Shown here: piece by piece, positions 6,170 through 21,641 of the stretch | How the letters are laid out: every line of letters starts with the position of its first letter | Numbering within the stretch: position 1 is the stretch's first letter | Virus record (IMG/VR): IMGVR_UViG_3300022907_000076 | Span: 1-27,431 of that record | Source of the DNA: a virus | Reading direction: 5' to 3' (one strand) | Length of the DNA: 27,431 nucleotides | Translations under genes and position numbers: made by a program | Notes under the pieces: model-generated | What the model saw: the letters and a program-made list of their open reading frames with translations, nothing else | The model's database searches: none | Told to the model about the DNA's origin: nothing

Positions 6170-7489
6170 ATGACAGTATCATACGATAGATTGATCGAAA
6201 AGTGGGCACCAGTACTGAACGAAGAGTCAGCTGGTACCATTACAGATCACCATAAGAAAGCTGTGACTGCTGCAGTACTTGAGAATCAGGAAATCGCTCT
6301 TAGAGAAGAAGGATTGATCTCAGAAGCAGCTCCAGCAAATGCAACAACATCTGTAGCAAACTGGAATCCAGTATTAATCGCACTTGTAAGACGTGCAATG
6401 CCAAACCTAATGGCATATGACGTTTGTGGTGTTCAGCCTATGTCCGGACCAACTGGCTTAATTTTTGCCATGAAGTCAAGATATGGTGGTGGAGACACAG
6501 CAAATAGAGAAGCACTATTCAACGAAGCTGAGACTCAGTTTTCTGGTGACAGTGCTGGTACTCACGATTCTGATAACGCATCAGGTCTTAACGGTATTAG
6601 TGATACCGATGCTGATAGCACAATTGATGATCAGCGTCTTACATCTCTTGCAGCTGGTGGTATGACAACAGGCGAAGCTGAAAAGTTAGGTTCAACTGGA
6701 GAGTCTTCATTCAGAGAGATGGGATTCACTATTGAAAAAGCAACTGTGACTGCTAAGTCAAGAGCTCTAAAAGCTGAATACAGCTTAGAATTAGCTCAAG
6801 ACCTTAAAGCAATTCACGGTCTTGACGCTGAGACAGAATTGGCAAACATCTTGTCAACAGAAATCTTAGCTGAAATCAATAGAGAAGTTATCAGAACTAT
6901 TAACTCTCAAGCTAAAACTGGTGCTCTACAATCAAACACTGCAATTAATGGTATCTTTAACGTACAGACAGATGCAGATGGCAGATGGTCAGTAGAAAAG
7001 TTTAAAGGACTAATATTACAGATCGAAAGAGAATGTAATCAGATTGCAATCGAGACACGTAGAGGTAAAGGAAACTTTCTCATATGTTCATCTGATGTAG
7101 CATCTGCATTAGCTGCAGCTGGTATGTTAGACTATACACCTGCATTATCAACAAACTTAAATGTTGATGACACAGGTAATACTTTTGCTGGTGTTTTAAA
7201 CGGTAGAACAAGAGTATACATTGACCCGTATGCAAGTGCAAACTATGTAACAGTTGGTTATAAGGGAACTAATCCATATGACGCTGGTATATTCTATTGC
7301 CCATACGTTCCATTAACAATGGTACGTGCTGTTGGTGAGGATACATTCCAGCCAAAAATTGGTTTTAAAACCAGATATGGAATGGTATCAAATCCATTTG
7401 TAGGCGCAACACCTGCTAATGGCCTAGCCGCTGTTAAGACTAACCAGTACTACAGAATATTCAGAGTTGACAATATTCTAGGTGCTTAA
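6170..7489 (+). CDS. gp23: Major capsid protein gp23
   Basis: This HK97-fold capsid shell subunit has 439 residues (T4 gp23 has 521). Diagnostic segments are LVRRAMPNLMAYDVCGVQPM, SGPTGLIFAMKSRY, GFTIEKATVTAKSRALKAEY and SLELAQDLKAIHGLDAETEL, as in marine T4-like g23 surveys. A likely gp21 cleavage lies at Ile50-Ser51-Glu52 before Ala53, just ahead of the conserved core, equivalent to T4 Glu65/Ala66. It has a GGGAG ribosome-binding site. A strong intrinsic terminator follows 21 nt after the stop, isolating this abundant transcript. Confidence 0.98.
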   Translation: MTVSYDRLIEKWAPVLNEESAGTITDHHKKAVTAAVLENQEIALREEGLISEAAPANATTSVANWNPVLIALVRRAMPNLMAYDVCGVQPMSGPTGLIFAMKSRYGGGDTANREALFNEAETQFSGDSAGTHDSDNASGLNGISDTDADSTIDDQRLTSLAAGGMTTGEAEKLGSTGESSFREMGFTIEKATVTAKSRALKAEYSLELAQDLKAIHGLDAETELANILSTEILAEINREVIRTINSQAKTGALQSNTAINGIFNVQTDADGRWSVEKFKGLILQIERECNQIAIETRRGKGNFLICSSDVASALAAAGMLDYTPALSTNLNVDDTGNTFAGVLNGRTRVYIDPYASANYVTVGYKGTNPYDAGIFYCPYVPLTMVRAVGEDTFQPKIGFKTRYGMVSNPFVGATPANGLAAVKTNQYYRIFRVDNILGA

Positions 7490-7510: not shown

Positions 7511-7538
7511 AAGAGGGGCGCAAGTCCCTCTTTTTTTT
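7511..7538 (+). terminator. Intrinsic terminator after gp23
   Basis: AAGAGGG (7511-7517) pairs with CCCTCTT (7526-7532). The stem is extended by a G-U and a C-G pair closing a GCAA (GNRA) tetraloop at 7520-7523, and an uninterrupted T-run follows to 7538. This is a textbook Rho-independent terminator for the capsid operon, and the next late promoter begins 2 nt after it. Confidence 0.93.
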
Positions 7539-7539
7539 A

Positions 7540-7547
7540 TATAAATA
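7540..7547 (+). promoter_or_regulatory. T4-type late promoter after gp23 terminator
   Basis: An exact TATAAATA lies immediately downstream of the gp23 terminator T-run, a terminator-promoter punctuation also seen at 19928-19962. The predicted start (about 6 nt after the last A) falls at about 7553, the A of the ATG of the NqrM-like ORF. Confidence 0.7.
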
Positions 7548-7552
7548 GTATT

Positions 7553-7693
7553 ATGGAAATATTTTTAGTAACATTATTTGTATTCATGTCATTCATAGCT
7601 TCAAGCTTGTCACTAGCATCTATGCTTAAGAGACCAATAAAAGGAAGTTGTGGTGGAATAAACTGTAGGTGTAAAGATGGCACTAACCACTAA
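7553..7693 (+). CDS. nqrM: NqrM-like (DUF539) small membrane protein
   Basis: This 46-codon ORF fills most of the gap between the gp23 terminator and the next tail gene. It encodes one N-terminal hydrophobic helix (about residues 3-24), then KRPIKGSCGGINCRCKDG. The helix plus KGSCGG motif plus nearby cysteine pair (Cys33, Cys38, Cys40) is the pattern of NqrM, the bacterial maturation factor thought to help install iron in the Na+-translocating NADH:quinone reductase. Bacterial NqrM is somewhat longer. There is no Shine-Dalgarno sequence; the ATG sits at the predicted late transcription start. Its 3' end overlaps the next gene by 17 nt and contains that gene's ribosome-binding region, suggesting coupling. 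Motif recognition is fairly strong, but activity on a host NQR is inference. Confidence 0.68.
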   Translation: MEIFLVTLFVFMSFIASSLSLASMLKRPIKGSCGGINCRCKDGTNH

Positions 7694-8246
7694 CTTCAAT
7701 TATCTACAACCTACTGGGTTTAAGCTAGTTATAGATAGAAAAAATTATCCGAATTTAGAATTCTTTTGTCAAGATTTTACTCATGCTGGTGTTATTATGA
7801 ATAGCGCAGATATTGGATATAAGAAAATTGCAGCTATACCATTTATAGGTGATAAGTTAACTTACAATGAAATGCTAGCAAATATTATTTTAGATGAAGA
7901 TATGAAGTCTTATATTGAAATGCATAATTGGATGAGAAGAATACTCGATCAAGATAATGTAACACCTTTAGACAGATTTAAAAATGCTACGCAGCGTCCA
8001 CCTTCACAATCAGATATTACGTTATCAATATTAAATAGTGCAAACAACGCTGTAGCACAAATAACATATAGAGATAGTATACCAGTAGCATTGACTGATA
8101 TACAGTTTCAAGCAACAAGCGGAGCTGAATCGTTCTTAACATTTGGTGCGTCTTTTAGATTTACGTATTTTGATATTAAAATATTTAATTCAACAACAGG
8201 TGCAATTACAGATTCATTTGATGTAACTGGTAGCGTAACTGGTTAA
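7677..8246 (+). CDS. Tail tube-like structural protein, gp3 position
   Basis: This 189-residue virion protein begins with FNYLQPTGFKLVIDRKNYPN, a start typical of a family of small T4-like phage tail proteins. It contains IPFIGDKLTYNEMLANIILDEDM and IEMHNWMRRILD, then alternating beta strands ending in ASFRFTYFDIKIFN. The beta-rich pattern and HNWM helix suggest a gp19-like tail-tube fold. In marine T4-like genomes the gene between 23 and uvsY is usually labelled gp3 (tail completion and sheath stabiliser), so this is the best positional candidate. I could not confirm gp3 homology by eye. A baseplate or tube-capping protein is the alternative. Confidence 0.7.
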   Translation: MALTTNFNYLQPTGFKLVIDRKNYPNLEFFCQDFTHAGVIMNSADIGYKKIAAIPFIGDKLTYNEMLANIILDEDMKSYIEMHNWMRRILDQDNVTPLDRFKNATQRPPSQSDITLSILNSANNAVAQITYRDSIPVALTDIQFQATSGAESFLTFGASFRFTYFDIKIFNSTTGAITDSFDVTGSVTG

Positions 8247-10741: not shown

Positions 10742-11245
10742 ATGAAAATAGATATGAAAATTTTTAAACATAGAATGGATAATTTTTTTAAATGGGTTAA
10801 AGGAACTGAATTAGTTGAACTTGATTATATTGACGTTACAGAAGATCCTGTAAGACCAGAACTTGATGTAGAATTTAGATTAAATTATAATCGTAAAATT
10901 TTTGGTTTAAAATATCAAGATAATATTGAAGGTATTATTTGTGTTGCTTATACAAATGATGTACCACATAATATTAAAGAATTAGATCTCATGAGCCAGA
11001 ATGCATATTATAAAAAAGATCCTAACACAGCGGTAGCTTATACGGTCTGGTCACGTAAAAGGGGTGCTGGTAAAGAAATCGTAAGAAAGTTATCAGAACA
11101 TTGTAAAAAGTTTTCTTATATAGAAAAATTAGTTACGCTTTCACCATTAACACCTATGGCTACGCATTTTCATATTAGTAATGGTGCAAAATTAATAAGC
11201 ATTAATCACACATCACAAAACTTTGAATACAAATTATTATCTTAA
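10742..11245 (+). CDS. Probable GNAT-type acetyltransferase
   Basis: This 167-residue protein has an arrangement resembling GNAT N-acetyltransferases. A central beta strand (NIEGIICVAYTND) is followed by TAVAYTVWSRKRGAGKEIVRKL. There, the basic RKRGAGKE stretch at about residues 105-111 is a candidate acetyl-CoA pyrophosphate-binding loop before a helix. The C-terminal HFHISNGAKLISINHTSQNFEYKL resembles the usual GNAT end strands. The substrate is unknown. The 98-nt gap upstream holds a small GGG/CCC hairpin near 10646 but no clear promoter. Family assignment is moderate, by pattern only. Confidence 0.65.
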   Translation: MKIDMKIFKHRMDNFFKWVKGTELVELDYIDVTEDPVRPELDVEFRLNYNRKIFGLKYQDNIEGIICVAYTNDVPHNIKELDLMSQNAYYKKDPNTAVAYTVWSRKRGAGKEIVRKLSEHCKKFSYIEKLVTLSPLTPMATHFHISNGAKLISINHTSQNFEYKLLS

Positions 11246-16238: not shown

Positions 16239-17173
16239 GTGTAGACTTTCTATGGGTTGAAAAATATAGACCTAAGTCTATATCAGATGTAGTCTTACCT
16301 CAAACTTTAAAACAAACCTTCCAAAAAATAGTTGACAGTAAAGAACTCCCTAATATGCTTTTTACTGGCACAGCTGGTTTAGGTAAGACTACAGTCGCAC
16401 GAGCTCTATGCAATGAGCTCGGTTGCGATTATATTCTTATTAATGGTTCTGAGGAAGGTAATATTGATACGTTAAGAACCAAGATAAAACAATTTGCATC
16501 ATCAGTTTCACTTCAAGGTGGCTACAAAGTTGTGATACTCGATGAAGCTGACTATTTAAATCCACAATCAACACAACCAGCATTACGTGGATTTATAGAA
16601 GAATTTTCAAAAAACTGTAGATTTATTCTTACATGTAATTTTAAGAATAGAATAATTGAACCACTTCATTCAAGATGTGGTGTATATGAATTCAATACAT
16701 CTAAAAAATCTATGATTGAATTATGTGAATCATTCATGGATAGATGTAAGACAATATTAGATAATGAACAAGTTAAATATGATACTAAACCGGTTGCAGA
16801 ACTAATAATAAAGTTTGCACCAGATTGGCGTAGAGTATTAAATGAATTACAAAGATACTCTGTTAATGGAAAAATTGATTCAGGAATTGTTTCAAATTTG
16901 CAAGATAAAAACTTTGATGATTTATTCTCTCATTTAAAAAATAAAAATTTTAAAAGTATGCGTTCTTGGGTTGTTAACAATATAGATACAGATGCAAGCG
17001 CTATTTTTAGAGCTATATACGATAGGATGACAGATAAAGTTGCACCACAATCAATACCACAACTTGTACTTTTGCTTGCAGATTATCAATATAAAAATGC
17101 ATTTGTAGCTGATCACGAACTTAATGTAGTAGCATGTTTAACGGAGGTAATGTCAGATGTCCAGTTCAATTAA
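16235..17173 (+). CDS. gp44: Clamp loader ATPase subunit gp44
   Basis: This AAA+ ATPase forms the motor of the gp44/62 complex that opens and loads the gp45 clamp. The 312-residue product (T4 has 319) begins with the RFC-like WVEKYRPKSISDVVLP. It carries Walker A GTAGLGKTT (45-53), Walker B with DEAD (103-106), and the arginine-finger SRC motif at 146-148. The C-terminal helical domain forms the collar in the complex. The gene overlaps glutaredoxin by 17 nt. Confidence 0.97.
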   Translation: MSVDFLWVEKYRPKSISDVVLPQTLKQTFQKIVDSKELPNMLFTGTAGLGKTTVARALCNELGCDYILINGSEEGNIDTLRTKIKQFASSVSLQGGYKVVILDEADYLNPQSTQPALRGFIEEFSKNCRFILTCNFKNRIIEPLHSRCGVYEFNTSKKSMIELCESFMDRCKTILDNEQVKYDTKPVAELIIKFAPDWRRVLNELQRYSVNGKIDSGIVSNLQDKNFDDLFSHLKNKNFKSMRSWVVNNIDTDASAIFRAIYDRMTDKVAPQSIPQLVLLLADYQYKNAFVADHELNVVACLTEVMSDVQFN

Positions 17174-17459
17174 ATTAACTTTGTATACTCAAGATGATTG
17201 TCAATACTGTAATGTATTGAAAAGAAAACTTTTAGAGTGGAATTATTCATATAGAGAAGTTAACGTAAGCTACGACTTATTTGCTAAAGATTTTTTAAAA
17301 AATGAAGGACATCGAACAGTTCCTCAACTTTACTGGAATAATTTGCACTTAAATAAAATGCCAACCCTAGAACTTCAAAAAAGAGATATTGAAGCTGAAA
17401 TAAATTATGAAGACTATATTGGTGGAGTCGAAAATTGGGGAATACAAAAAAGAGCATAA
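17157..17459 (+). CDS. Glutaredoxin
   Basis: This 100-residue thioredoxin-fold protein starts with a beta strand leading into DDCQYCNVLKRKL, a CXXC (Cys-Gln-Tyr-Cys) dithiol site. The conserved cis-Pro loop HRTVPQLYWNN follows at about residues 52-62. Likely roles are reducing ribonucleotide reductase or other phage/host disulfides, or Fe-S handling. GGAGG at 17143-17147 lies 9 nt upstream of this ATG within gp44, supporting the start. A glutaredoxin inserted inside the clamp-loader operon implies early co-expression with replication. Confidence 0.9.
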   Translation: MSSSIKLTLYTQDDCQYCNVLKRKLLEWNYSYREVNVSYDLFAKDFLKNEGHRTVPQLYWNNLHLNKMPTLELQKRDIEAEINYEDYIGGVENWGIQKRA

Positions 17460-17638
17460 AAACATTATGGCATTATTGGTGTAAGGCTATGGGTAGTCAT
17501 GCATACGATAATAATAAGAAAGACGACTATGTTCATAATTCTATTAGATCGTTATGGGTGTTACTTCATATAGTTACTTGCTTTGCAATTATATTAAATG
17601 CTATAGCTAATCATGGTTGGAGTTTAATAGGATTATGA
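17435..17638 (+). CDS. Small membrane protein, TTG start
   Basis: This 67-residue protein has a basic N-terminal half containing WHYWCKAMGSHAYDNNKKDD and one strong transmembrane helix (about residues 40-60, LWVLLHIVTCFAIILNAIA). The start is TTG at 17435 with GGTGGAG at 17421-17427 as ribosome-binding site. No upstream ATG is available without deep overlap. It overlaps glutaredoxin by 25 nt and the next small gene by 4 nt. I recall related small proteins in other marine T4-like phages but cannot verify this here. Function is unknown. Confidence 0.75.
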   Translation: MGNTKKSIKTLWHYWCKAMGSHAYDNNKKDDYVHNSIRSLWVLLHIVTCFAIILNAIANHGWSLIGL

Positions 17639-17793
17639 TATTAGAAGCACTATCAATAATAGTTTCTCTCGGTATCTTGTATATTGTGTGGGATAGCTTA
17701 TACACGCGCTATAAAGAAAAAGAGTGGAGACGTAACAATCCAGATGAATACACATGGTTAGAGCAACCAGTAAAAAAGGATAAAGGATTATGA
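17635..17793 (+). CDS. 52-residue single-pass membrane protein
   Basis: This ORF is coupled on both sides by ATGA overlaps: its ATG overlaps the upstream TGA and its TGA overlaps the gp62 ATG. It begins MILEALSIIVSLGILYIVWD, a transmembrane helix, followed by a charged cytoplasmic-type tail (TRYKEKEWRRNNPDEYTW). An uninterrupted frame exactly bridging two genes is strong evidence that it is translated. Function is unknown. With the preceding gene it forms a pair of tiny membrane proteins inside the clamp-loader operon. Confidence 0.78.
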   Translation: MILEALSIIVSLGILYIVWDSLYTRYKEKEWRRNNPDEYTWLEQPVKKDKGL

Positions 17794-18779: not shown

Positions 18780-18835
18780 GGATGCCGAATGGTTCGGGTC
18801 CGTACAACAACCTTGCTTAACAGGAGGATACTATG
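18780..18835 (+). promoter_or_regulatory. ROSE-like RNA thermometer in the hsp20 leader
   Basis: The leader can fold into two hairpins. Hairpin I spans 18780-18801: GGAT pairs with GTCC around CCGAA/TTCGG with a TGG loop and one bulged G. Hairpin II spans 18812-18827 and pairs CTTGCT-type bases with the Shine-Dalgarno AGGAGG (18822-18827). In it U17-A22, C16-G23, G15 opposite G24, U14-A25, U13-G26 and C12-G27 enclose a UAAC loop (last two digits of 188xx). The anti-SD strand UUGCU with a G opposite a G matches the U(U/C)GCU signature of ROSE thermometers, which control small heat-shock genes. Folding is by hand only. Confidence 0.62.
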
Positions 18836-19243
18836 ACTGGAAACTTTGTTTTCCCAAGGAACGCTTTTTTAGGTTTTGATCACATTTTCGATGCATTGCA
18901 AGATATACATACGCATGCAAACGATGGATACCCACCACACAATGTCGTAAGAGAAGAAGATAACAAATATGTTATTGAAATGGCTGTAGCCGGCTTCAAG
19001 AAAAAAGACATTGAAATTAAGGTGAAGGAACATATCCTTACCATCGAAGGAAATAGAGATAAACGTAGAGAAGCAGATGCTTATGTACACAAAGGAATAA
19101 GTGCACGTAAGTTTAACAAATCATTCAGACTGTCGGAATATACCGAAGTAACTGGTGCAGATCTAACGGATGGAATACTAACTGTCAATTTAGAAGTGGT
19201 TCTACCGAAAGAAAAGCAGCCTCGTACAATTAACATAACGTAA
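18833..19243 (+). CDS. hsp20: Small heat shock protein Hsp20 (alpha-crystallin domain)
   Basis: This ATP-independent holdase chaperone binds unfolding proteins in the cytoplasm. The 136-residue product has a short N-terminal arm, then an alpha-crystallin domain from about residue 42. Hallmarks are YVIEMAVAGFKKKDIEIKV, ILTIEGNRD, the SFRLSEYTEV segment and GILTVNLEVVLP. It ends with an Ile-Asn-Ile (I-X-I) anchor motif used in oligomerisation. The start has a strong AGGAGG that is predicted to be masked by the upstream RNA hairpin. Hsp20 genes occur in many marine T4-like phages and may support capsid assembly or host proteostasis. Confidence 0.95.
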   Translation: MTGNFVFPRNAFLGFDHIFDALQDIHTHANDGYPPHNVVREEDNKYVIEMAVAGFKKKDIEIKVKEHILTIEGNRDKRREADAYVHKGISARKFNKSFRLSEYTEVTGADLTDGILTVNLEVVLPKEKQPRTINIT

Positions 19244-20733: not shown

Positions 20734-21339
20734 ATGAAAAATTTTAAAACATTTTTACTTGAAGCTGAAGGAAAAGGATTAACAATCTTCGATATTGACG
20801 AAACCATGTTCATCACTAAAGCTCAAGTAAAAGTTGTTAAAGATGGAAAAGTTGTTAAAAAACTGAATAACCAAGAATTTAATACATATAAGAAAAAATC
20901 TGGTGAAGAATATGACTTCGGCGAATTTAAAAACGCCGAAGTATTTAACAAGACGTCAACACCAATCGCGAGAATGATTAATAAAGTTAAAGCGATTTTA
21001 AAAAACGCAACAAGAAAAGGTTCAAAGGTTATCATTGTAACTGCAAGACCTAACTTTGATAATAAAAAATTATTTCTAGATACATTTAGAAAACAAGGAA
21101 TTGACATAGATAAAATCTATGTTGAAAGAGCTGGAAATCTTGGTGCAGGTCCAGCTGCAAAAAATAAAGAAATTATCTTTAAAAAATACTTAGATCAAAA
21201 AATATACAAACGTATAAGATTATTTGATGATGCTATGTCAAACTTAAAGGTATTTTTATCATTACAAAAAGATTATCCAGATGTAAGTTTTGAAGCACTA
21301 TTAGCAAAACCAAATGGCTCAGTATCAAGAGTAAGATGA
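20734..21339 (+). CDS. HAD-superfamily phosphatase with capsid-targeting-like N-terminus
   Basis: This 201-residue hydrolase has HAD motifs in order: Asp20-X-Asp22-X-Thr24 (FDIDET), Thr103 in IIVTARPN, a Lys at about 143-145, and Asp165/Asp166 in LFDDAMSN. It resembles the 3'-phosphatase domain of polynucleotide kinases. No kinase domain is present. The extension MKNFKTFLLEAEGK is like the T4 capsid-targeting peptide MKTYQEFIAEA, with a gp21 site Leu-Leu-Glu before Ala11. This suggests the enzyme may be packaged and trimmed inside the head. No ribosome-binding site is seen. It overlaps the IscA-like gene by 4 nt. Confidence 0.87.
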   Translation: MKNFKTFLLEAEGKGLTIFDIDETMFITKAQVKVVKDGKVVKKLNNQEFNTYKKKSGEEYDFGEFKNAEVFNKTSTPIARMINKVKAILKNATRKGSKVIIVTARPNFDNKKLFLDTFRKQGIDIDKIYVERAGNLGAGPAAKNKEIIFKKYLDQKIYKRIRLFDDAMSNLKVFLSLQKDYPDVSFEALLAKPNGSVSRVR

Positions 21340-21641
21340 TAACCATAACCGAAAAAGCAAAGGACTATTTAACAGAAATGACATGGGCTAAAGATAAGAA
21401 GTATGCATTTCTTTCTGTTAATGGTGGTGGCTGTTCTGGATTTCAATATAAATGGGATATGTTAGATAATCCAGTAGATGGCCATTTAGTAGAAGATATC
21501 TTGTACATAGATAGAATTGCAGAAATGTTTGTTATAGGTTGTACAATAGATTATGTTACAGAGTTTGGAGGATCTTATCTTAAGGTCATTAATCCTAACG
21601 CAGTCGCTTCTTGTGGTTGCGGTGAAAGCTTTGCTGTGTGA
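21336..21641 (+). CDS. A-type iron-sulfur carrier (IscA/HesB-like)
   Basis: This 101-residue protein of the IscA/ErpA family binds iron or [2Fe-2S] clusters and passes them to target proteins. The three defining cysteines are present: Cys33 in VNGGGCSGFQY, and Cys93 and Cys95 in ASCGCGESF. The FGGSYLKVINPNA segment also matches. A further Cys lies in VIGCTIDYV. It is coupled to the HAD phosphatase by ATGA. It probably supports Fe-S or iron enzymes during infection. Similar genes are known from marine T4-like phages. Confidence 0.93.
   Translation: MITITEKAKDYLTEMTWAKDKKYAFLSVNGGGCSGFQYKWDMLDNPVDGHLVEDILYIDRIAEMFVIGCTIDYVTEFGGSYLKVINPNAVASCGCGESFAV

Follow-up and report, generated by a model that had tools for sequence, protein, structure and literature searches.

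NqrM of V. harveyi, a maturation factor of the sodium-pumping respiratory complex Na+-NQR, reportedly has one helix and four conserved cysteines. The Cys33Ser exchange is reported to abolish maturation, the exchange of any other cysteine to do no more than reduce the yield, and delivery of iron to the NqrD/NqrE centre has been proposed as its role. Iron delivery to NqrD/NqrE has been predicted for NqrM (PMC6209661), and the protein is required for the intramembrane cluster (PMC12174285). The bacterial proteins (PF04400) are 66-82 aa long; in them the GSCGG[LIM]N stretch is followed by a linker, then by another cluster of cysteines and finally by a charged tail, and their genes lie beside nqr or apbE.

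We analysed a stretch of 27,431 nucleotides (the window; IMG/VR record IMGVR_UViG_3300022907_000076) from a T4-like, Kyanoviridae-type virus. It has 32% GC and no tRNA genes. The named viruses closest to it are Kyanoviridae and include, besides Phage C48C1, Pelagibacter phage HTVC008M and cyanophages. The gene for the major head protein gp23 (6170-7489, plus strand; phrog_138, E 3.9e-164) is followed by that for a gp3-like tail completion/tail tube protein (7677-8246, plus strand; phrog_45), a product named "tail tube" in PHROGs, whereas annotated relatives most often call it "tail completion and sheath stabilizer" (gp3). Between them lies a small gene, here called mini-NqrM, at 7553-7693 (plus strand), the 3' end of which is overlapped by the tail gene start (7677) by 17 bases. 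Elsewhere the window encodes a glutaredoxin (17157-17459), an Hsp20 (18833-19243) and an A-type iron-sulfur carrier (21336-21641; PF01521), two overlapping small probable membrane proteins of 67 and 58 aa (17435-17793; the first is phrog_1679) and a 167-aa protein (10742-11245) that matches PF05292, the C-terminal domain of malonyl-CoA decarboxylase, with 28.8 bits and may represent an acetyltransferase-like fold within the recombination gene cluster.

Kinship of the mini-NqrM protein with bacterial NqrM

The translation of 7553-7693 is MEIFLVTLFVFMSFIASSLSLASMLKRPIKGSCGGINCRCKDGTNH, followed by a stop, which confirms the frame of 46 codons with one helix, KGSCGG and two close cysteines that an earlier note had read from this DNA. 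The length of the ORF alone is not significant, a frame of 48 codons being present on the opposite strand, and we count it as a gene because many independent contigs share its frame, its start and its motif. AlphaFold gives a single high-confidence helix at residues 2-25 (7556-7627, plus strand) and an unstructured tail beyond it. The helix is predicted to span the membrane, its hydrophobic stretch is conserved in the family, and by alignment and shuffle control it corresponds to the N-terminal single membrane helix of NqrM. It is followed by KGSCGGINCRC, comprising the KGSCGG motif at residues 30-35 (7640-7657, plus strand) and the Cys38-Arg39-Cys40 codons TGT AGG TGT (7664-7672, plus strand). 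The GSCGG cysteine is invariant and is residue 33 both in the window protein and in bacterial NqrM, where the two align exactly; we take it to be the essential Cys33 of V. harveyi NqrM.

Searches of single sequences against Pfam, PHROGs and NCBIfam became informative only once relatives were added. NqrM (DUF539, PF04400; gathering cut-off 22 bits) is the sole Pfam match of the window protein, over residues 26-37 and at 15.8 bits below the cut-off, and all eleven members of set A1 behave alike. The low score is due to the absence of most of the modelled part, as the model begins at the end of the helix and runs into a C-terminus that the phage proteins lack. For comparison, the true NqrM of Ruegeria pomeroyi reaches only 26.1 bits, and two phage relatives (L276 and L289) pass the cut-off with 23.9 and 22.9 bits. 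Thus the profile search proposed in the earlier note failed for the window protein taken alone and succeeded for these relatives.

For profile comparisons, the bacterial reference set consisted of nqrM genes taken from plasmid records, where they lie in nqr/apbE loci, and of one unannotated stretch that matched; the bait was an approximate consensus, and only retrieved sequences were used afterwards. Alignment of the phage and bacterial profiles with hhalign gave a probability of 98.6 over residues 1-37, membrane helix included, with the shared pattern M.tF..t......gMslG...(k)kpiKGSCGGlN. The phage profile scored 27.8-43.4 bits on bacterial NqrM, and the bacterial profile matched every phage member with 24-52 bits. 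That the similarity might consist of GSCGG and a greasy helix only was addressed by shuffling the helix residues with the motif kept (200 shuffles for each of 14 members), which lowered the score in nearly all trials and led us to reject this explanation for most members: the true sequence scored above all 200 shuffles for 10 of the 14, with the best bridge (L276) at 52.2 bits vs a shuffle maximum of 31.9, and the window gene, also among the ten, at the edge with 29.5 vs 29.4 for its best shuffle. FeoB-associated and other small cysteine-rich membrane proteins likewise combine one helix with clustered cysteines, but the family has no Pfam match to them, NqrM being the only one shared. We therefore hold it very likely, from these comparisons, that the phage family is homologous to bacterial NqrM over residues 1-37, and the relationship proposed in the earlier note stands: a profile match exists and the cysteines and the frame are conserved, so that neither finding it had named as speaking against the relationship was made.

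The likeness covers the N-terminal single helix, the position and sequence of K.IKGSCGG[LIM]N and Cys33. Unlike the bacterial proteins, the phage members are only 42-46 aa long; about 8-10 linker residues are missing after GSCGG[LIM]N, as is all that follows the second cysteine cluster in NqrM, so that CRC comes at once and the proteins end within 2-8 residues. Of the three downstream cysteines of NqrM the phage members have two (C38 and C40), the last one being absent in all, and four conserved cysteines with a normally placed C-terminal cluster are thus not found. Because of the score below the Pfam cut-off, the lack of the four-cysteine C-terminus and a location away from nqr/apbE, we class mini-NqrM, as judged from its alignment, as a shortened phage variant by descent from NqrM and not as a standard NqrM.

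Distribution and conservation among marine phages

The gene was found on over 80 marine IMG/VR contigs, with family-based scans confirming 58 and 92 contigs in two partly overlapping sets, and 58 distinct phage ORFs were compared. They include the same ORF beside gene 23 in marine phage relatives, where the earlier note had suggested looking for it, with cysteines and frame conserved. The median dN/dS was about 0.22 among copies in the gp23-gp3 neighbourhood of the window and 0.40 over a broader family sample, and the variable sites of the motif codons fell 4, 3 and 11 times on codon positions 1, 2 and 3, favouring the third; the selection indicated by these patterns is purifying. No NqrM-like protein was present among 50,697 annotated phage records, and tblastn against annotated phages gave chance matches only. 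In viral contigs, a pattern scan for full-length NqrM returned unrelated frames only, and the bacterial NqrM alignment found no full-length NqrM. The one match among genome contigs (L218, Sulfurimonas) proved to be part of a histidine kinase and was discarded as a false positive. HTVC008M, too, encodes a small protein (85 aa) after gp23 and before the next tail gene, but this protein has no relationship to NqrM.

Within the clade of the window, the interval from gp23 to the gp3-like tail gene shows clean presence or clean absence of the ORF. IMG/VR relatives of the tail gene without the ORF have 62-100 bases between the two genes, and relatives with the ORF have 180-187 bases, or 497 where an extra 97-aa ORF is added. 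This extra ORF (MPVTVVTTFYKTD...), with a weak DUF4447 match, stands between gp23 and mini-NqrM in L020-L023 and L025. On the gp3 tree, presence and absence require 5 changes vs a shuffled mean of 17.6, which indicates that the pattern is for the most part inherited, apart from some events of loss or gain. The gene is missing from many close relatives and is therefore dispensable. In three contigs (L011, L013 and L030) promoter and start are kept and a remnant of 12 codons, MNITCRCTNGIN, stands directly before gp3, apparently the result of an in-frame deletion of mini-NqrM that spared the CRC/ribosome-binding part.

The family occurs in five gene neighbourhoods. As in the window, it lies between gp23 and gp3, with a TATAAATA box at 5-nt spacing, and the same box and spacing accompany copies between the gp4 head closure gene and a gene for a gp2-like DNA end protector. 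It further occurs between a gp4-like gene and a FeS_assembly_P gene with TATAAATA upstream (L217/L239), between a phrog_455 gene and a further ORF without the box (L247, L248 and L273), and, in a different phage type, before the terminase small subunit, also without the box (L250). The context is phage-type in every case and, unlike in the bacterial controls, without nqr or apbE neighbours. L217 and L239 are one contig of a T4-like marine phage, and there (L217 2992-3436) the 3' part of mini-NqrM runs into the start of the FeS_assembly_P (PF01883) gene, the product of which has only distant matches among annotated phages. A small, late, one-helix protein encoded next to structural genes might also serve lysis, superinfection or the virion and resemble NqrM by descent only. 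We regard this as very improbable, since the core GSCGG.NCRC, almost invariant and better conserved than the rest of the protein, has the pattern of a cysteine metal site, unexpected in holins or spanins.

A putative late promoter and the CRC codons

A TATAAATA box resembling a T4-type late promoter lies at 7540-7547 (plus strand), 5 nt before the ATG of mini-NqrM, and most copies of the gene have the late promoter 5 bases upstream of their ATG; by chance, about 3.7 such boxes are expected per strand. Upstream of it, at 7514-7539 (plus strand), a terminator-like hairpin with a T run (GAGGGGCGCAAGTCCCTC then T8) was read from the sequence after gp23 and is found in relatives with and without the ORF. 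Hairpin and box together separate mini-NqrM from gp23. As the box ends 5 bases before the ATG, reasoning from T4 late promoters predicts that the late transcript is almost leaderless.

The arginine codon of CRC is AGG in all 58 distinct phage ORFs, a codon otherwise rare in phage core genes (15 of 237 arginine codons). The next ATG follows the CxC codons after 4 bases in 53 cases, 5 in two and 7 in one, two contigs ending before it, and this spacing of 4-7 nt holds across five different downstream genes. The 58 ORFs are related by descent and do not represent 58 independent events, but the AGG pattern spans all five of these genes. Since AGG is invariant and the next start lies 4-7 bases on, the tail appears to encode a Shine-Dalgarno sequence; TGTAGGTG-N-ATG is a good arrangement of this kind, and the CRC codons probably double as a metal site and as the Shine-Dalgarno sequence (AGGTG) of the next gene, in the window the tail gene. 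In phages without the ORF (L036, L042, L045, L047, L051 and others), gp3 starts 5 bases after TATAAATA, and its mRNA is predicted to be nearly leaderless for a structural gene.

The same observations could mean that the ORF serves mainly as a leader whose translation and AGGTG tail set the expression of the next structural gene, the peptide being a by-product. The fixed AGG and spacing in every context, the lack of room for a Shine-Dalgarno sequence where gp3 directly follows the promoter and the retained 12-codon remnant all agree with such a leader. However, the helix and KGSCGG lie outside the ribosome-binding site, and their conservation is that of a protein sequence with homology to NqrM; moreover, phages that lack the ORF manage well with the promoter immediately in front of gp3, which makes this explanation unlikely.

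Possible target, host and meaning

The reading we prefer, of which we are only about half convinced, is that of a host-derived late mini-NqrM which would deliver iron to Na+-NQR or a close relative; its function, target and host we infer as follows. A bacterial NqrM gene would have been captured by a phage and shortened, and the adjacent upstream TATAAATA box would drive its late transcription. The protein would be inserted in the host membrane and docked there through its one N-terminal helix, and C33, C38 and C40 just after the helix could take up iron and hand it on to the centre (iron or [2Fe-2S]) that lies between the membrane subunits NqrD and NqrE of Na+-NQR, the first candidate target, the homologous RNF-type complex being the second. 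Sodium-coupled respiration would thereby be kept supplied late in infection, to the presumed benefit of the phage, and the 3' end of the gene would supply the ribosome-binding site of the next gene and couple the two. For this reading we counted the homology described above, the largely inherited pattern of presence and absence and, by association, the FeS_assembly_P overlap in L217 and the A-type Fe-S protein, glutaredoxin and Hsp20 of the window. Against it we counted the Pfam score of the window protein, the missing C-terminal half of NqrM, the absence of nqr/apbE nearby, the many close relatives without the gene and the lack of Na+-NQR in two marine bacteria considered below.

The effect on the target complex may be in either direction, help or block. 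In the latter case the docking parts of NqrM (the helix and the Cys33 motif) would occupy the assembly site or strip iron, so that new Na+-NQR would be blocked or iron diverted to the phage. Deletion of the C-terminal half and the remaining cysteines with the helix and GSCGG kept is the usual dominant-negative shape, and late timing fits host shutdown. Yet the CRC, invariant apart from its role in ribosome binding, leaves a tail that still looks functional, and a short version could still work, since NqrM reportedly depends less on its other cysteines than on Cys33; such a decoy we consider improbable.

The choice of target depends on the host. SAR11 HTCC1062 and SAR116 IMCC1322, members of two groups that might be hosts, have only NDH-1 and no Na+-NQR (PMC11813361). 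This leaves two possibilities, a host among other marine bacteria or a target other than Na+-NQR. The earlier note's view of a host with Na+-NQR is plausible though unproven, and its exclusion of a cyanobacterium is not proven because cyanophages are among the nearest named relatives. A search of Campylobacterota genomes gave no NqrM match, the positive control being likewise silent. Delivery of iron or Fe-S clusters to another membrane target, such as RNF or a host or phage protein, within a phage Fe-S toolkit would suit the two possible host groups without Na+-NQR, the FeS_assembly_P gene overlapped by the L217 homologue and the IscA-like and glutaredoxin proteins of the window. To our knowledge, however, NqrM is known only with Na+-NQR, and T4-like marine phages commonly carry Fe-S carriers and glutaredoxins anyway; we give this alternative a limited chance.

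No paper on nqrM in phages was found in full-text literature searches. With cyanophage psbA, mini-NqrM shares a host origin and a patchy occurrence in T4-like marine phages and, if our preferred reading is right, an aim at membrane energy metabolism; unlike psbA, it is a drastically shortened assembly factor and not a working subunit, and it stands behind a late promoter among structural genes. As a wider proposal, in which our confidence falls somewhat short of even, T4-like marine phages, as well as at least one further type of phage, would carry a streamlined mini-NqrM that acts late on Na+-NQR or RNF and manipulates the sodium-motive respiratory chain of their hosts via an assembly factor. 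The gene would form an overlapping module, its metal-binding CRC tail doubling as ribosome-binding site for whichever gene comes next. This double use of the CRC codons, as protein and as ribosome-binding site, would clearly illustrate how information overlaps in a compact genome. If the proposal is true, the helix, GSCGG and one CxC would be suggested as the minimal functional core of NqrM. Moreover, phages would supply an assembly factor and thereby interfere with respiration at its sodium-pumping entry point, a target that lists of phage metabolic genes do not usually include.
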